Source of the DNA: Brumimicrobium oceani
GTDB taxonomy: Bacteria > Bacteroidota > Bacteroidia > Flavobacteriales_D > Crocinitomicaceae
Direction: 5' to 3'
Assembly (NCBI RefSeq): GCF_003143775.1
Contig: NZ_QFRJ01000008.1
Location: 1-64,000, forward strand
Length of the DNA: 64,000 nucleotides
Shown: positions 3,493-17,649 of the stretch, one piece after another
How the letters are laid out: each line of letters starts with the position of its first letter
Position numbering within the stretch: position 1 is the first letter of the stretch
Translations under genes and position numbers: made by a program
The notes under the pieces: generated by a model
Told to the model about the DNA's origin: nothing
Databases searched by the model: none
Seen by the model: only the letters and a program-made list of their open reading frames with translations

Positions 3493-3984
3493 ATGACAAA
3501 AAACAAATCAAGACCGATAGTACTCCTCGTAGCAGGACTGCTATGGGCAGGCTTGACACAAGCTCAAGAAAGTGCAAACGCCTCAGGTGGTGACGCCACT
3601 GGAAGTGGTGGTACAGTTGCTTACAGCGTAGGACAGGTAGTTTACACCTCCAATACAGGAAGTAGTGGAAGTGTTGCCCAAGGCGTTCAACATGCCTACG
3701 AAATTTTCACCGTTGGAATTAAAGAAACAGCATTAAACATTTCGCTGTCTGTTTTTCCAAACCCAACAACAGAAAATTTAACCTTACAAATAAGCGATTA
3801 CAACAACGAAAAATTGTCGTATCAGTTATTTGATATGCAAGGTAAACAACTAAGCAACGGACAAATAGTAGCACAGCAAACGCAAATTGATATGAACAGT
3901 TTGCCAACAGCTACATACTTCATAATCGTTTTAAACCAAGAAAACAAAAATGTTCAATCATTTAAAGTAATCAAAACTCAATGA
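3493..3984 (+). CDS. Small secreted protein with T9SS type A sorting domain
   Basis: A 163-residue protein with a signal peptide (residues 1-24, ending TQAQ), a Ser/Gly/Thr-rich segment with repeated SGGDATGSGGTVAYSVGQV-like sequence, and a C-terminal Por-secretion sorting domain (about residues 85-163; VFPNPTTENLTLQI ... LPTATYFI ... KVIKTQ). Such domains direct export through the type IX system and anchoring or release at the cell surface. It lies 97 bp upstream of the DGR target and in the same orientation, so both may be co-transcribed. It could be a partner or surface carrier for the diversified protein; that is inference from position. Confidence 0.75.
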   Translation: MTKNKSRPIVLLVAGLLWAGLTQAQESANASGGDATGSGGTVAYSVGQVVYTSNTGSSGSVAQGVQHAYEIFTVGIKETALNISLSVFPNPTTENLTLQISDYNNEKLSYQLFDMQGKQLSNGQIVAQQTQIDMNSLPTATYFIIVLNQENKNVQSFKVIKTQ

Positions 3985-4081
3985 GACAGTATTTTTGAAA
4001 AAATACGTAGTCGAATTAGTCCCGATAGCAAAGCGTATCGGGAACAAATAGTAAGAATATTAAGATTAAAATTAAAAAATT

Positions 4082-5659
4082 ATGAAAAAGATAATTACAA
4101 TTTGTGCAGCATTACTAATGACTGCAAGCGTGTTCGCTCAAGCACCCGAAAAAATGAGCTATCAGGCAGTAATCCGCAATAGCAGCGATGCTTTGGTTAC
4201 AAACACACAAGTAGGCATACAGATTTCTATTTTGCAAGGCTCGGCAAGCGGAACAGCCGTTTATATAGAAACCCAAGCACCAACCTCTAATGCCAATGGT
4301 TTAGTAAGTTTAGAAATTGGAGCAGGTACGGTTGTAAGTGGAGACTTCACCACTATCGATTGGGCAAATGGACCTTATTTCATAAAAACCGAAACCGACC
4401 CAACAGGCGGTACAAGTTACACAATAACAGGTACAAGCCAGTTGTTAAGTGTGCCTTATGCTTTACATGCAAAAACGGCTGAAACAGTTACAGGTGGCAT
4501 TACCGAAACCGACCCTGTTTTTGGTGCATCCGTAGCGAGTGGCATAACAGGAACTGATACTACTAACTGGAATAACAAATTAGACAGTTACACCGAAACC
4601 GACCCTGTTTTTAGTACATCCGTAGCAAGTGGCATAACAGGAACTGATACTACTTATTGGAACAACAAATTAGACAGTTACACCGAAACCGACCCTGTTT
4701 TTAGTACATCCGTAGCAAGTGGCATAACAGGAACTGATACTACTTATTGGAATAACAAATTAGACAGTTACACCGAAACCGACCCTGTTTTTGGTGCATC
4801 CGTAGCGAGTGGTATCACAGGAACTGATACTACTTATTGGAACAACAAATTAGATAGTTACACCGAAACCGACCCTGTTTTTGGTGCATCCGTAGCGAGT
4901 GGTATTACAGGAACTGATACTACTTATTGGAATAACAAATTAGACAGTTACACCGAAACCGACCCTGTTTTTGGTGCATCCGTAGCGAGTGGTATTACAG
5001 GAACTGATACTACTTATTGGAACAACAAATTAGACAGTTACACCGAAACCGACCCTGTTTTTAGTACATCCGTAGCAAGTGGTATCACAGGAACTGATAC
5101 TACTAACTGGAACAACAAACAAGACCAATTAGTAGCGGGCTCAAACATTAGTATAGTAGGGAATACTATAAGTGCAACAGGTGGTTCATCCAACGACTTT
5201 TATTTGGGGCAAGATACCTTAGGTGGCATCGTGTTTTATATCTATTTAGATGCGAATGGAGACCAACGTGGGCTCATTGTAAATAAAAACGAAAGCACAG
5301 CACAATGGCAAAGCAGCGGCACAACAACCAATGCCACACGCAGTTGGGATGGCGTTTACAATACAGGATTAATGACAAGTAGCCCTGCTGCTAATTATGT
5401 AAATGGATTGACTGATGGTGGTTTTACAGACTGGTATTTACCATCAATTGACGAGTTAAGTATATTATGGCACAACCGCTTCCATGCTAATAATTCCTTA
5501 AATGCTGGAGGTTTTACACTGTTATCAAATACTGCCTTCTATTGGAGTAGTACGGAGTACAGTGCTTCAGGCGCGTTCCTCTTCGGCTTCGGCAATGGCT
5601 ACGCAAACATCTACAATAAGTCAATAACTTATAGTGTGCGTGCCGTTCGGGCTTTTTAA
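4082..5659 (+). CDS. DGR target protein: repeat stalk with C-type-lectin-like variable C-terminus
   Basis: This 525-residue protein has a signal peptide (1-19, ending FAQ). A Bacteroidota surface-protein segment follows (about 20-135; KMSYQAVIRN ... LSVPYALHAKTA), then seven 30-residue repeats (141-350). The C-terminal domain (about 365-525) reads GGIVFYI ... WYLPSIDEL ... YWSSTE ... VRAVRAF, as in formylglycine-generating-enzyme/DUF1566-type C-type lectin folds used by DGRs. The last 42 residues (484-525) align without gaps to the template region downstream. It is the first gene of a target-avd-TR-RT set. It probably sits on the surface as a diversified binding protein. No T9SS sorting domain is visible on it, though the neighbour at 3493 has one. 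Confidence 0.9.
   Translation: MKKIITICAALLMTASVFAQAPEKMSYQAVIRNSSDALVTNTQVGIQISILQGSASGTAVYIETQAPTSNANGLVSLEIGAGTVVSGDFTTIDWANGPYFIKTETDPTGGTSYTITGTSQLLSVPYALHAKTAETVTGGITETDPVFGASVASGITGTDTTNWNNKLDSYTETDPVFSTSVASGITGTDTTYWNNKLDSYTETDPVFSTSVASGITGTDTTYWNNKLDSYTETDPVFGASVASGITGTDTTYWNNKLDSYTETDPVFGASVASGITGTDTTYWNNKLDSYTETDPVFGASVASGITGTDTTYWNNKLDSYTETDPVFSTSVASGITGTDTTNWNNKQDQLVAGSNISIVGNTISATGGSSNDFYLGQDTLGGIVFYIYLDANGDQRGLIVNKNESTAQWQSSGTTTNATRSWDGVYNTGLMTSSPAANYVNGLTDGGFTDWYLPSIDELSILWHNRFHANNSLNAGGFTLLSNTAFYWSSTEYSASGAFLFGFGNGYANIYNKSITYSVRAVRAF
4502..5131 (+). repeat. Seven tandem 90-bp repeats in the DGR target gene
   Basis: Units start at 4502, 4592, 4682, 4772, 4862, 4952 and 5042. 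Each encodes 30 residues, beginning TETDPVF(G/S)(A/T)SVASGITGTD and ending NNKLDSY. Unit 1 and the last unit carry TTNWNNK where the others have TTYWNNK. Nucleotide identity between units is very high, which points to recent expansion or homogenisation. The product is probably a fibrous stalk that holds the variable domain away from the cell. Confidence 0.9.
5531..5656 (+). other. DGR variable region (VR)
   Basis: The last 42 sense codons of the target gene align, with no indels, to 6248-6373. I count 43 differing bases: 26 at template adenines (of 48) and 17 at other template bases (of 78). The adenine bias is the mark of DGR mutagenesis. The conserved 3' end (GTTCGGG(C/A)TTTT) is where the initiation of mutagenic homology would lie, and the unchanged YWS.TE start defines the 5' limit. 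Confidence 0.85.
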
Positions 5660-5684
5660 CCATTTAACTATTTATCAATTTAAT

Positions 5685-5697
5685 ACCGCGAAGCGGT
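5685..5697 (+). promoter_or_regulatory. Small hairpin 28 bp downstream of the VR
   Basis: ACCGC GAA GCGGT forms a five-base-pair stem with a three-base loop just after the VR stop codon and just before avd. DGRs of the Bordetella phage type need a hairpin shortly downstream of the VR for efficient retrohoming. This one has the right position, but its stem is shorter. A weak transcription signal is an alternative. Confidence 0.4.
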
Positions 5698-5710
5698 CGA
5701 TTTTAAAAAA

Positions 5711-6052
5711 ATGGCACTATATTACGATTTACCAGTTTTTAAGGATGTTTATAAGCTCGTGTTGAAGATTTTTGATTATACCAAAGATTTTCCACGAGAG
5801 TATAAGCATACCTTGGGGCAAGATATGAAGCGAGACAGTATACAATTGGTAAGGAGTATATATAGAGCCAATAAAGCAAAAGAAAAAAGGGCGTATCTCG
5901 AAACATTTCTTGATGACTTTGAATTGCTAAAATTCGAGATACGCCTTTGTGTTGATATGAAAATTTTAGCAATAAAAAAGCAAGCCGAGCTATCGGGTTT
6001 AATGGACAGCATAGGCAAACAAATTACCGGTTGGCGTAATGCCAATCGGTAA
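5711..6052 (+). CDS. avd: DGR accessory variability determinant (four-helix bundle protein)
   Basis: The 113-residue, all-helical, basic protein (start MALYYDLPVFKDVYKLVLKI; a second helix around FPREYKHTLGQDMKRDSIQLVRSIYRAN) matches the four-helix-bundle family to which Avd belongs. Avd forms a pentameric ring that binds the reverse transcriptase and the template RNA and is required for cDNA synthesis. It lies 51 bp after the target gene and before the template region, the usual place. The ATG follows an A-rich leader. Homologous four-helix proteins also occur as 23S rRNA intervening-sequence proteins, but the DGR context decides. Confidence 0.85.
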   Translation: MALYYDLPVFKDVYKLVLKIFDYTKDFPREYKHTLGQDMKRDSIQLVRSIYRANKAKEKRAYLETFLDDFELLKFEIRLCVDMKILAIKKQAELSGLMDSIGKQITGWRNANR

Positions 6053-6247
6053 ATGCCGGAATTGTATGTGTTAAGGCATATACAAGCGAGCAAGGTTTAG
6101 TTTAAAAGCGATAAAGGGACTGTTCGGTGAGCAGTTAAAACGAGCGTTATTTGATGCTAAGTAATTAGTTTTGAGTAACTCTATAATAAATATGAGATGC
6201 CTTGTATTTATATGAACGCCTTTATTTTTGCGGTTGGCGGTTTTGCT

Positions 6248-6373
6248 AGTGCCTACTATTGGAGTTCTACCGAGAACAATAATAACAACGCTTGGAAACA
6301 GAACTTCGACAATGGCAACCAGAACAACAACAATAAGAACAACACAAATAGGGTTCGTGCTGTTCGGGATTTT
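6248..6373 (+). ncRNA. DGR template region (TR) within the DGR RNA
   Basis: This is an A-rich copy of the VR (48 A in 126 bases). Translated in the VR frame it is packed with Asn codons (AAC/AAT), the codons DGRs use because adenine mutagenesis can turn them into most other residues without making stops. It lies between avd and the reverse transcriptase on the same strand. Open frames crossing it (6197-6508) are by-products of the template, not genes. The functional RNA would run from upstream of avd or TR into the start of the RT gene. Confidence 0.85.
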
Positions 6374-6390
6374 AAACAAGCCATTTTTTC

Positions 6391-6430
6391 AGAAAACCTA
6401 TCAGCGTCAGCAAAGGCGCTGATAGTGTTT
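6391..6430 (+). promoter_or_regulatory. Strong hairpin between TR and RT
   Basis: CTATCAGCG (6398-6406) pairs perfectly with CGCTGATAG (6417-6425). AAAAC and a GTTTT tract extend the stem with one mismatched base. The region downstream of a TR is part of the DGR RNA that folds back for cDNA priming, so this stem may belong to that structure. A T-rich tract after it means a partial terminator is also possible. Confidence 0.55.
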
Positions 6431-6467
6431 TCTTTCTTAAAAAACATTAAACTTTACAAACTGATTT

Positions 6468-7688
6468 GTGCAACTTTCATTATTCGACATACCACAACCC
6501 AAAATTGAACTTGAAGAACTATTCACGGCCTATTTCGAATGTCGCAAAAACAAGCGAAATACTGCCAATGCGTTGGCATTTGAAATTGACTACGAAAATA
6601 GCTTGGTGCAATTAGGTGAAGAAATAAACAGCGGAACATACAAAATAGACAGGTCAATTGCTTTTATCGTAGATAAACCTGTTAAGAGAGAGATTTTTGC
6701 AGCCGATTTTAGAGATAGAGTGGTTCATCATTTAATTATCGGTAAACTAAACCATCTGTTTGAAAAACAGTTTATACACGATAGTTACAGTTGCAGGGTT
6801 GAAAAAGGAACGCATATTGGAATACAACGAGTTGACAGGTTTATTCGTCAATGCTCTGCCAATTACACCAAAGATTGCTACATACTAAAACTCGATTTGC
6901 AGGGCTTTTTTATGAGCATAAACAAAAACATACTTTTTGCAAAACTCGAAAAGTTTATAAAAGAAAAATACCAATCAACAGACAAAGATTTGTTGATAAA
7001 ACTATGCAAGCAAATAATTTTGAACGCCCCCACAAAAAACTGCATTATTAAGGGGTACAAAAGCGACTGGGATAATTTACCACAAACCAAAAGCCTTTTT
7101 CACAGCAAACCTAATTGCGGCTTGCCCATAGGCAACCTTACCAGTCAGGTTTTTGCCAATTTTTATATGGACAGCTTCGACCATTTTGTAAAACACAACT
7201 TGAAAATAAGGTATTATGGCAGATATGTAGACGATTTTGTGATAGTGCATGAAGATAAAGAGTATTTGAAGAAACTTATTCCCATATTGTCTGAATATCT
7301 GCAAACAGAATTACAAACAACCATTCACCCCAAAAAAATATATCTTCAACACTACGGCAAAGGAGTACAATTTTTGGGGACGGTCATAAAACCCAACAGA
7401 ATTTACATTGGCAATCGCACCAAAGGTAATTTTTTCAATGCCATAGAAAAGCAAAATAAGATAGTGCTCGACAACAAACCCACTAAAGAAGAAAAGGCAG
7501 CATTTTTGAGCAGTATGAACTCGTATTTAGGTATAATGAAGCATTATAAAACCTACAATCTGCGAAAAAGAATGATCTTTAAAAGGCTTTCAGGTTATTG
7601 GTTTAACCACGTATATCTCAGCGGAGGAATTGCCAAATTTGTATTGAAAGAAAGACCAGTTAAAAAGAACCAACGAAACGCTAAATAA
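6468..7688 (+). CDS. DGR reverse transcriptase
   Basis: The 406-residue protein is a group-II-intron-like RT. It carries the fingers motif with FRDRVVHHLI (about 84-93), LKLDLQGFFMSI, GLPIGNLTSQVFANFYMD (the (I/V/L)GNxxSQ form typical of DGR and related RTs) and the catalytic YVDD at residues 253-256. There is no maturase, RNase H or endonuclease domain, which fits a DGR. The start is GTG at 6468, right after the TR-downstream hairpin. It synthesises mutagenised cDNA from the TR RNA together with Avd. Its stop codon (7686-7688) lies inside the first bases of the conserved 3' module. Confidence 0.9.
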   Translation: MQLSLFDIPQPKIELEELFTAYFECRKNKRNTANALAFEIDYENSLVQLGEEINSGTYKIDRSIAFIVDKPVKREIFAADFRDRVVHHLIIGKLNHLFEKQFIHDSYSCRVEKGTHIGIQRVDRFIRQCSANYTKDCYILKLDLQGFFMSINKNILFAKLEKFIKEKYQSTDKDLLIKLCKQIILNAPTKNCIIKGYKSDWDNLPQTKSLFHSKPNCGLPIGNLTSQVFANFYMDSFDHFVKHNLKIRYYGRYVDDFVIVHEDKEYLKKLIPILSEYLQTELQTTIHPKKIYLQHYGKGVQFLGTVIKPNRIYIGNRTKGNFFNAIEKQNKIVLDNKPTKEEKAAFLSSMNSYLGIMKHYKTYNLRKRMIFKRLSGYWFNHVYLSGGIAKFVLKERPVKKNQRNAK

Positions 7689-7886
7689 CTAAGTATTCGG
7701 CGTGCCGATTACGCCCTACGGTTGTGAGATCGCTTCGCTAAGTTGGCCAACGCTGAACTACGAAGTACTCATGAATACAAATAAAAAAAAACAGACAAGA
7801 ATGAATAATACCATGTTGACGGATCCGGAGTTCCTTAGCCTTACTGAGCTTGCCGAACGTATGGGGAAATCGGTTTAATACATTAT
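7679..7886 (+). repeat. Conserved 3' module, copy 2
   Basis: AATAACTAAG (7684-7693) and the following block are nearly identical to 986-1190, including the GTATTC/GAATAC and GCGTGCC/GGCCAACGC arms. The unit-specific lead-in AACGCTAA (7679-7686) is complementary to the start of the DGR unit (TTAGCATT, 3400-3407) with one mismatch, as for the other units. Copy 2 lacks about 11 bp near its end relative to copy 3, probably by deletion between short direct repeats, and passes straight into an IS91 end. Confidence 0.7.
7771..7878 (+). CDS. 35-residue ORF carried by the 3' module (copy 2)
   Basis: Same length and reading frame as 1073-1180, with E for D, L for P and S for A near the C-terminal HTH-like sequence. 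All indels are absent, so the frame has been preserved between the copies, but the copies are so similar that this is weak evidence of selection. Confidence 0.3.
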   Translation: MNTNKKKQTRMNNTMLTDPEFLSLTELAERMGKSV

Positions 7887-8124
7887 TTTGGTGTGTTACG
7901 CTTTGATTATGAGCGTGCATTTCGAATTTAATTTGGTTGATTACTATTCAGTGTCACGAAAACCACGCATTTATCAGGACTTTCGCCAGTTTGATGTCGA
8001 TTTTACTAATTCTAAGCCATAACTTCCTCATTACGCGCTAGACGTTGCATTTATTCTGTTGATTTATTGATACTTAAAGTTTCTCTCCAGTTTTCTGGTG
8101 GACCTCTACCGTCAAAAAGTAAAA
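7887..8124 (-). mobile_element. Terminal remnant of an IS91-like element
   Basis: This stretch is nearly identical to 15426-15664, the end of the larger IS91-like element. It includes, on the minus strand, the last codons of the transposase (GRGPPENWRETLSINKSTE, stop near 8058). Homology stops near 8124, where a truncated unrelated gene begins. The rest of the element is deleted. Confidence 0.7.
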
Positions 8125-15588: not shown

Positions 15589-16786
15589 TTATTCTGTTGA
15601 TTTATTGATACTTAAAGTTTCTCTCCAGTTTTCTGGTGGACCTCTTCCATCAAAAAGTAAAACTGTGATTAATTTTCCTTTTTTACACCTTGGACATCGC
15701 CTGTGATGTGTTGGGTTTTCCTTAATAATTTCGGACGTTTTCTTTTCATTCAATAACTTTTGAAGTTGGGGTAGCTTTATCTTTTTCCAACTGCTGCTTA
15801 ATATTCCAAAATGTCGTATTCGAGTAAAGCCTTTAGGTAAAATATGTAAAGAAAACCGTTTAATAAAGTCGGAAGTTTTAAGTGTTATATCGTGTTTTTG
15901 TCCACCTTTTCTATAATTTTTAGCAGAAAATGTGACTGTTTTCTTAGTATAATCAATGTTCTTTATTCTGTGATTAGAAATAGCGATTTTGTGAGTGTAT
16001 CTTCCAAGATACTGCACCCCGTTAGAAACCTAGAATTTGCCCCACCTTAGAAAATCTGTAAAATATTTTTCTAACGGGGCAAGCAAGTTCAGGTTTAAAG
16101 AAAGATTGTTTTGCATAAACGACCCATTTTTTAGAAAACACTTTATCGTAAATACCTTGTGGTATTTTTAATTTGCTTTTTCTAAGCAAAGCAATATACT
16201 TTGCCCGAAAAACGGTACTCATTGACTTCACATTGAACAAGTATTTTCCTTTACTTCGTGAAGACTTCCACTTGTTGTCTTTTGTCACGCCACCGCCAGG
16301 AACTATACAATGTAAATGAGGATGAAGTGACATATTTTGACCCCAGGTGTGCAATATGCTTATCATTCCCATTTTCCCTCCAAGATGCTTTGGATTATCA
16401 CCAAACTGCTGCAAAGTCTGCCAAGCAGCTTTAAATAATGAACCATAAATGATTTTGCCTTCTCTTAAAGCATATTCATTAAATTCTGATGGAAGGGTGA
16501 ACACAACATGAAAATACGGAACTTCTAAAAGTTCATTTTCTCGTGCATTAATCCACTCTTCTCGCTTGTGACCTTGGCAAGTTGGGCAATGTCTATTCCT
16601 GCAGCTGTTGTAACTGATGTGTAGTTTATTACAACAATCACACTGATCAATGTGTCCGCCCATTGATTGTGTTCTGCATCTTCGAATGGCGTGTAATGTA
16701 CGTAAATGCCAAGTTGTGGGAGCTAATTTGAAAAGTTGATTTTGCTCTAATTCAAGAACATCGGCAACTTTATATTTACTCTTCAA
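15589..16786 (-). pseudogene. IS91-family transposase interrupted by a mini-element
   Basis: The first part (16786 down to about 16080) has the N-terminal zinc-binding region (CRTQSMGGHIDQCDCC, CRNRHCPTCQG) and the rolling-circle replicase region (WGQNMSLHPHLHCIVPGGG with the HxH metal motif). The 63-bp insert then adds about 19 foreign codons and a stop. Coding resumes at 16017 with QYLGRYTHKIAIS and runs to ENWRETLSINKSTE, including a second Cys pair (CPRCKKGK). The IS91-type tyrosine region would lie around YLGRYTHK, close to the insertion. Without the insert the protein would be about 390 residues, normal for the family. Confidence 0.8.
16017..16079. mobile_element. 63-bp palindromic mini-element inside the IS91 transposase
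   Basis: The ends CCCCGTTAGAAA and TTTCTAACGGGG are identical to those of the 62-bp element at 1220-1281. The middle contains a third degenerate arm (CCCCACCTTAGAAAA). Its site in the transposase is about eight codons upstream of the site hit in the other copy, so it is an independent insertion. It introduces an in-frame stop. Confidence 0.65.
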
Positions 16787-17649
16787 GTATTGTAAATCAG
16801 GTCTAGCGGACTGTATTTTTTTGAAGAACCTGAGTTTGAAACATGTAGATAAACCAGCGTTGTTTCTATTCTAGCATGACCAAGTAGTTCTTTTAAGGCA
16901 AGTAAATTCAAACCACTTTCTAGTAAATGCGTAGCGTAAGAATGGCGAAGTGTATGTGCTGTTATCTTCTTTGAAGTCCCGATTTTACTTCGATTTTCTT
17001 TGAATACCCATTGTATTGCTCGAACTGTGATGGGTAGAGGTTTTCCATTATCAGTTACTTGACTGTTAAACAAATAAATACACGGATTCTCTGTTTTAAT
17101 ATACTTTTTCAGACCTCTCGATAAATGCGCACTCAGTGGAACATATCTATCTTGTTTCCCTTTTTGTTTTTTTATAAAAACAGTGTTTCGATCAAAGTCA
17201 ACATCAGATAATTTCAAAGCACAAAGTTCATAACTTCTCAGTCCGCAACCGTAAAGCGTTGCAATTATAAGTCTGTGCTTTAAATATTTTGGCGCATTGA
17301 TTAATTTTTTCACCTCCTCTAAACTCATCACCACAGGAAGATCGTTTTGTCTTTTTATTTCAGGAAGTTGAACTTTATGACCATCCATTCCAAGCAATTT
17401 GTAGATCGCCCTTAGTCCATAAATCGTGTGTTTGAAAAAACTATCCGAGGGAGTATTATGTTGGTTTTTACAGTGAAAAAGATAGTCATCAATGGCTTCT
17501 TTATCTAGATGTTCTGGACTTTTCTTGTAATGCAAAGCCAAGTGCGCAAGGCATCTGGAGTAGTTATTTAGGGTGCTTTCTGACTTTCCATTAATCGAGA
17601 AGCTTTTGGTTAGTTTCTCGTGCAAGTCTTCAAAACCTGCAACCTCCAA
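16783..17649 (-). CDS. Tyrosine-type site-specific recombinase of the IS91-like element
   Basis: The 288-residue protein has an N-terminal SAM-like core-binding domain (about 10-95; SESTLNNYSRCLAHLALHY) and a catalytic domain with the tetrad residues: Arg in GCGLRSYELCAL, Lys/His region around KKQKGKQDRYVPL, HTLRHSYATHLLESG, LGHARIETTLVYLHVS with the Tyr nucleophile. It overlaps the transposase start (ATGA-type junction). I do not see the extra helix insertion that defines integron IntI, so it is a Xer/phage-type enzyme. Whether it acts on the nearby cassette ends is open. Confidence 0.85.
   Translation of the reverse strand: MEVAGFEDLHEKLTKSFSINGKSESTLNNYSRCLAHLALHYKKSPEHLDKEAIDDYLFHCKNQHNTPSDSFFKHTIYGLRAIYKLLGMDGHKVQLPEIKRQNDLPVVMSLEEVKKLINAPKYLKHRLIIATLYGCGLRSYELCALKLSDVDFDRNTVFIKKQKGKQDRYVPLSAHLSRGLKKYIKTENPCIYLFNSQVTDNGKPLPITVRAIQWVFKENRSKIGTSKKITAHTLRHSYATHLLESGLNLLALKELLGHARIETTLVYLHVSNSGSSKKYSPLDLIYNT

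Follow-up and report, generated by a model that had tools for sequence, protein, structure and literature searches.

Why does the diversity-generating retroelement (DGR) of Brumimicrobium oceani hold a template repeat (TR) that fits the variable repeat (VR) of the adjoining target gene so poorly? As DGRs are known to work, cDNA made from the TR RNA with errors at adenines replaces the VR, the site being set by the VR end and the hairpin behind it. The element lies near the start of the window, the whole 64,000-nucleotide stretch that was analysed (NZ_QFRJ01000008.1, positions 1-64,000; assembly GCF_003143775.1, 35 contigs, 99.97% complete, contamination estimate 2). It was compared with sampled related loci of other genomes, which are given L-numbers; among them is L019, another Bacteroidota DGR. 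We conclude that the cassette is probably a crossover hybrid of two DGRs in which the target has yet to be rewritten from the resident template. The segments on which this conclusion turns are the following.

5531..5656, + strand: VR, by ungapped alignment to the TR
5685..5697, + strand: hairpin ACCGC-GAA-GCGGT 3' of the VR, candidate homing cis-site, from the sequence
5711..6052, + strand: avd (bAvd 78 bits, cut-off 40; PHROG 3206), chimeric by the identity matrix, with an L019-like 5' half and an L015-like 3' half
5854..5962, no strand: interval containing the putative crossover (max-chi2 for L015, L017, L042 and L016 vs L019)
6053..6247, + strand: avd-TR spacer, 90-97% identical to L015/L016/L017/L022/L042 and 37% to L019
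about 6248..6374, + strand: TR, non-cognate to the adjoining VR, 93-97% identical to the TRs of L015/L016/L017/L022/L042 and 74% to that of L019
6468..7688, + strand: DGR reverse transcriptase (RT), GTG start (RVT_1 69 bits; PHROG 1423, 6e-96)

Fit of resident and foreign templates

Aligned without gaps, the VR (5531-5656) and the TR (6248-6373) differ at 43 positions, which comprise 26 of the 48 template adenines and 17 of the remaining 78 bases (Fisher p = 2e-4). At this offset 83/126 positions match, against 46/126 at the next best ungapped offset tried. The initial annotation had reported this gapless alignment with 26 of 43 differences on template adenines, and both the figure and the adenine bias stand; what it left uninterpreted were the remaining 17 non-adenine (non-A) differences, which are the most informative part. 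Counted over 5530-5651, the mismatches fall on 25/47 adenines and 17/75 other bases, so that 40% of the differences are non-A and 60% are at adenines. The mean published for TR/VR pairs is about 1.5 non-A substitutions (PMC6642488), and at least 75% of mismatches are stated to lie at adenines in the overwhelming share of DGR alignments (PMC8144416). DGRscan is described as accepting less than 30% non-A differences (PMC4159848), and a detector with that limit would discard the window's pair.

The sampled relatives behave differently. Non-A mismatches number 0-6 in 37 of the 38 other TR/VR pairs, L027 being the exception, and the VRs of L015/L017 and L019/L020 have 0-1 non-A mismatches to their own TRs. 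Together with the window these make a set of 39 pairs, in which L019 and L112 are seemingly one DGR counted twice, and L044 and L045, which repeat L029 and L028, are not recounted. Left out of it are L120 (the match fell on an internal repeat), L039 (VR truncated where the contig ends) and L115 (score below the limit), as well as loci that gave no convincing pair (L032, L033, L036, L040, L047, L048, L116-L119, L121 and L132).

A foreign template fits the VR better than the resident one. Against the L019 TR, the window's VR (5530-5651) has mismatches at 23/48 adenines and at only 4/74 other bases (15% non-A; adenine enrichment p = 4e-8), and two of these four non-A mismatches agree with the TR of L020. 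At the 17 sites where VR and resident TR differ on a non-A base, the base of the VR is found in the L019 TR at 11 and the base of the resident TR at one; no part of the VR was seen that looks like a copy of the resident TR at these sites. When the 39 TRs are ranked by fit, 37 of the 39 VRs have their own TR in first place, alone or level with a duplicate, the exceptions being L027 and the window, whose own TR ranks sixth. The TR and VR of the window are thus non-cognate, by a measure on which nearly all sampled relatives come out cognate, and avd is chimeric. A working TR/VR pair, as the initial description of a complete DGR implies, is not supported.

L027 (743-859 and 1465-1581) is a second case of a VR that fits its own TR poorly, with 17 non-A mismatches in the ungapped alignment and a 3-nt indel. 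Judged by eye, the fit is still poor when gapped, and no sampled TR is a good match (the best two leave 12 and 10 non-A mismatches). L027 may be another hybrid.

Change of kinship within avd and its explanations

An identity matrix combined with sliding windows assigns the segments of the cassette to two different relatives. Nucleotide identity to L019 and L015, respectively, is 66% and 38% for the tip of the target, 78% and 62% for the VR, 84% and 72% for the stretch after the VR and 91% and 76% for 5' avd. From there on the order is reversed, with 76% and 92% for 3' avd, 37% and 90% for the avd-TR spacer, 74% and 97% for the TR and 42% and 96% for the post-TR spacer. The three thirds of the RT gene follow with 78% and 89%, 83% and 89%, and 76% and 77%, the last third being close to neither. 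Max-chi2 analysis of sites from 5650 on places the breakpoints against L019 at 5854-5962, inside avd, for L015, L017, L042 and L016, and at 5848 for L015 against L020. In each of six comparisons the observed value was reached in 0 of 2000 permutations, which take sites as independent in comparisons that share sequences. In a tree of the tip from which the VR was left out, the window clusters with L019 and L020 (100/99), and a forced clade of the window with L015, L016, L017 and L042 is rejected (p = 7e-8). Kinship thus clearly changes at avd-TR; how far the RT gene came along is less certain. The RT protein tree, with BPP-1 as its sole outgroup and no wider RT classes covered, is poorly resolved (one of 20 branches starred) and pairs the window's RT with that of L020, so the origin of the RT is less certain than that of the TR. 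For its lack of resolution, RT phylogeny was dropped as proof of a hybrid.

The segment 6053-6374 (avd-TR spacer and TR) is 90-97% identical to L015, L016, L017, L022 and L042, though identity in the RT thirds is 72-89%. Such high likeness would reflect either a constraint on the RNA or spread of the block.

No second partner was found in the B. oceani assembly. Searches with the resident TR as DNA, and with an adenine-tolerant TR pattern allowing 3 mismatches, returned just the known VR and TR; the target protein found no second target, and the L019 TR as DNA found no second TR, only three short matches at E 0.04-0.83. No other gene scores above the Lcl_C cut-off, one further match lying below it (E 0.47). 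No second DGR RT was found: the sole other RVT_1 match in the genome is an antiviral RT of the Drt2 type (470 bits; contig C12:107059; L075 8724-10295, - strand).

How else might such a cassette arise? It is very unlikely to be an ordinary active, cognate DGR with a larger than usual TR/VR difference. The open reading frames (ORFs) of avd, RT and target are open, the differences show adenine bias with its own TR and the hairpin behind the VR is kept, all of which would suit such an element; against it stand the 40% non-A differences, compared with 0-6 non-A mismatches in 37/38 other pairs and with the DGRscan limit (PMC4159848), and the better fit of the L019 TR. We give equally little credence to decay, in which homing would have ceased in the distant past, leaving TR and VR to diverge through ordinary point mutation. 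Homing is evidently not recent, and the 3' third of the RT gene is just 65-77% identical to the 14 relatives compared, lower than the 89% to L015 over the rest of the gene, as decay might leave it. The TR has not drifted, however, because it is 93-97% identical to TRs on contigs named Chitinophagaceae, Marinilabiliaceae and Flavobacteriaceae among others; drift also sits poorly with the agreement of VR and L019 TR at 11 of the 17 non-A sites and with the intact avd and RT ORFs.

Several observations weigh against the crossover hybrid itself. One of the six max-chi2 comparisons, L022 against L019, puts the breakpoint at 6504, outside avd. The RT protein tree joins the window's RT to that of L020 at 80/89 and does not reject a grouping of the window with L019 and L020 (p = 0.055). 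This would be expected if only 3' avd-TR (about 5900-6500) had been introduced by gene conversion into an L019/L020-type DGR that kept its original RT, and it is in keeping with the avd3-spacer-TR block being 85-100% alike among L015, L016, L017, L022 and L042 when their RT thirds are 72-92% alike, as if the block spreads or is RNA-constrained. We consider conversion improbable, its odds overlapping with those of the crossover: the first two thirds of the RT gene are 89% identical to L015 vs 78-83% to L019 and L020, and the post-TR spacer is 96% identical to L015. Repeats and variable sites make a locus difficult to assemble, and the junction is known from the assembly, so that two DGRs of one sample might have been joined artificially at the conserved avd. 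The number of contigs and the contamination estimate would permit this, but an artefact is hardly probable when the searches of the assembly turned up one DGR RT, one TR and one Lcl_C gene over the cut-off, its other RT being Drt2. The base rate from the 39 pairs leans towards good pairs, as the finder penalises non-A mismatches and pairless loci were omitted. Finally, L019 would be a relative of the donor and not the donor, because it is just 66-91% identical to the window from the tip to 5' avd.

The crossover hybrid remains our preferred explanation. A crossover inside avd would have joined an L019-type target, VR and 5' avd to an L015-type 3' avd, TR and RT. The present variation of the VR would have been written by a lost L019-type template, and the resident template would have left no visible mark on the VR, homing having been incomplete since the crossover. 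A single crossover is the route that the arrangement of identities suggests. Of the homing signals, the hairpin at 5685-5697 has a 5 bp stem and a 3-nt loop and is found again, its stem altered, after many but not all of the related VRs; phage DGR stems are described as larger, with 7-10 bp and 4-nt GRNA loops, and at least 8 bp of identity is reported to suffice at the 5' end for homing (PMC3240598). The window's VR and TR have in common a 10-bp run, CTATTGGAGT. With this run kept and the hairpin present, the resident template could in principle home into the foreign VR, and the machinery may still be able to do so. An Rfam scan of the window gave no match at gathering scores.

A change of DGR target is not visible in the other pairs because the template fits the target closely in 37 of 38, and the trace of such a template/target exchange is normally invisible. 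The cassette of the window would show the exchange itself, with homing incomplete since, and it offers a natural construct with which to gauge the extent of TR/VR homology required for homing. It would gain in interest with a demonstration that the resident template homes into the foreign VR. Only tentatively, as one possibility, do we extend this to a wider proposal: Bacteroidota fibres and DGRs may evolve as exchangeable halves through crossovers in avd that give a resident template a foreign tip; homing would later overwrite the captured VR and erase the trace, and the window would represent the state before overwriting, able to home through short homologies at both VR ends.

The predicted surface fibre and its T9SS partner

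Target, avd, TR and RT lie in this order on the + strand, preceded by the gene of a small type IX secretion system (T9SS) protein. This arrangement had been recognised at the outset, and ORFs and family matches agree with it. The target, avd and RT ORFs are all open. Avd matches PHROG 3206, 'Avd protein of DGR' (1.6e-24), and reaches 66.9 bits with NCBIfam NF033474, below its cut-off of 80. The family search proposed for the RT supports a DGR-type enzyme: PHROG 1423 (6e-96) is named just 'Reverse transcriptase', the top match among solved structures is 8ub7 (328-aa RT, 3e-30), which we take to be BPP-1 bRT, and BPP-1 brt is matched at 1e-27 with 29.7% identity over 73%. The ORF contains GLPIGNLTSQ and YVDD, presumably DGR-type RT motifs. 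The VR-avd-TR-RT layout is common to the related loci that reach far enough and yield a TR/VR pair. The fibre and its neighbour divide as follows.

3493..3984, + strand: small T9SS type-A sorted protein (Por_Secre_tail 47.4 bits, cut-off 27; TIGR04183 43.1, cut-off 23)
4082..5659, + strand: DGR target, surface fibre protein of 525 aa, from the ORF (Lcl_C PF07603 48.8 bits, cut-off 34.9, residues 400-523)
4142..4500, + strand: fibre N-domain, MAT-N-like and predicted beta-rich, after a signal-peptide-like start (judged by eye)
4502..5131, + strand: stalk of seven 30-residue repeats, phage tail-fibre type (90-nt period; PHROG 9729)
5177..5656, + strand: C-type-lectin tip, Lcl-like, L019/L020 type (structure model and fold match)

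The VR occupies the C-terminal end of the target, inside the C-type-lectin fold. The structure prediction that had been suggested for this part returned a C-type-lectin tip with a predicted local distance difference test (pLDDT) score of 90.4. Its fold matches are Lcl (8q4e, Z 16.1), a Bacteroides ovatus fimbrial protein (4eps, 15.4) and Bd2740 (8oks, 10.6), the next match having Z 8.8; in amino acid sequence the tip is 73% identical to that of L019. The stalk repeats match PHROG 9729, 'tail fiber protein', in 7 stretches (1.5e-38). The early description of a C-type-lectin-like domain carried on seven 30-residue repeats therefore holds, given the Lcl_C match, the fold of the tip and the 90-nt period. 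Stalks of relatives differ (partly judged by eye), being collagen-like in L028, of other repeats in L020 and little or absent in L026, L029 and L031. L028 (4631-6226) is a DGR target that combines a collagen-like stalk, an Lcl_C-type tip and a MAT-like N-domain, and is much like Legionella Lcl.

The N-domain scores 45 bits with NF053851, the MAT N model, below the 60-bit cut-off, over residues 11-85 and the first half of the model. Eight of 10 related targets match the same model, all below the cut-off; L042 and L023 give no match. The structure model has a mean pLDDT of 75.5 and eight strands of at least 3 residues, and a fold search against PDB gave no match at E <= 0.001, a result that by itself proves nothing. 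By analogy the N-domain, as a candidate member of the MAT family, may work like that of a MAT fibre.

The small T9SS protein directly upstream of the target is real (Por_Secre_tail 47.4 bits), whereas the initial view that such a partner is unusual does not hold. Of 299 genomes sampled from the order, 198 have the fibre N-domain (E <= 1e-10). Fetched for inspection were 29 fibre loci, the best matches of the N-domain search, in stretches of about 3.4 kb or less that do not always extend beyond the fibre gene; in 25 of them a T9SS homologue is encoded immediately upstream. Of the four without it, L088 and L093 are short of room on the contig; L107 and L109 are not so limited. One of the 29 loci (L108) also showed avd and RT, and the genome of another (L087) has a truncated RT some 4.6 kb away. 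Among other sampled RT loci with an N-domain and upstream sequence, the T9SS gene is present in 10/11 (absent from L030; the match in L024 is weak), while the L042 and L023 targets have another N-terminus and no T9SS gene upstream. T9SS protein and fibre thus make up a common module, which a DGR accompanies now and then.

The fibre would be exported, be seated on the cell by means of its N-domain, with the T9SS protein of the preceding gene perhaps holding it there, and project the lectin tip on the repeat stalk; the RT/Avd complex would copy TR RNA with adenine errors into the last ~40 codons of the tip. Display on the surface and anchoring by the T9SS protein are what the domain content and gene order suggest. 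The surface element that holds MAT fibres has been called unidentified (PMC10769870), and the conserved T9SS-protein/fibre gene pair is a candidate for it.

Mutation of K369, K380, K385 and K391 of Lcl is reported to lower glycosaminoglycan (GAG) binding (PMC11162425), and these residues lie in the part of Lcl that corresponds to the VR. Of them, 3/4 coincide with Asn codons in the resident TR (p = 0.15), or 5/6 with S371 and A372 included (p = 0.02); the corresponding figures with the L019 TR are 3/4 (p = 0.08) and 3/6 (p = 0.26). Overlap of the Lcl ligand site with the diversified codons was too weak for a claim and was set aside.

Distribution, flanking DNA and known systems

The DGR, and not the T9SS partner, is the rare part of the locus. 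The RT was found in 5/199 genomes at E <= 1e-30 and, in two samples at E <= 1e-60, in 9/395 and 12/395 (own genome included each time); none of nine congeners searched has it at E <= 1e-30. No relative was confirmed among viral contigs with patterns that reach close relatives only. A viral origin was considered and not adopted: the nearest phage RT is 47% identical, the plasmid matches are all below 60%, and no viral-contig relative was confirmed.

A 208-nt direct repeat (99%) at 984-1191 and 7682-7889 brackets the DGR segment, its second copy beginning at the RT gene's 3' end. The repeat belongs to a longer dispersed one of ~450 nt with several genome copies, some beside IS91-like transposase ORFs. 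Through the direct repeat the segment could be lost or moved. A truncated IS91-family transposase (1152-1658; Y2_Tnp, NF033538 below cut-off) lies between the first repeat and the DGR. Beside another repeat copy, 15589-17649 holds an IS91-like transposase in two ORFs and a tyrosine-recombinase-like ORF (labelled by eye). The stretch 244-975 encodes a PLD-like protein with a C-terminal helix-turn-helix, weak DrmC matches and a match to the candidate defence family PDC-S69.

The BPP-1 DGR has the order mtd(VR)-bbp7-TR-brt, in which we take bbp7 to be avd, and its RT is related at the level given above. Its target Mtd is, like the tip in the window, of the C-type-lectin class (PMC10769870). The window differs from it in not lying in a recognised phage, in its fibre target, in a TR that is non-cognate to the VR and in its chimeric avd. 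The Bacteroidota DGRs L015/L017 and L019/L020 are closer, with the same layout and RTs of 80-86% amino acid identity, but their VRs match their own TRs and that of the window does not. Legionella Lcl (DUF1566/Lcl_C) shares the tip fold (Z 16.1 over 123 aligned residues, 31% identity), and its last 39 residues align one to one with the VR, 18 being identical; it differs in its collagen stalk and N-terminus, and the Lcl paper mentions no DGR (the word 'retroelement' does not occur in it). Bdellovibrio MAT fibres are described as having a signal peptide, a beta-rich N-domain of ~130 aa, a fibre stalk and varied C-terminal tips that include C-type lectins (PMC10769870). These chimeric fibres share the N-domain/stalk/tip plan (tip Z 10.6 to Bd2740), whereas the window's N-domain lies below the family cut-off, its tip is diversified by a DGR and it has a T9SS partner gene. 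Intragenic recombination producing chimeric targets has been suggested (PMC8144416), and searches of open-licence papers gave no report of a TR/VR mismatch arising through a crossover in avd; for T9SS together with DGRs they gave a single paper, a review on rumen viruses. DGR, Lcl_C target and fibre tips are thus of known kinds; the new part is a template and a target, seemingly from different DGRs, joined in avd.

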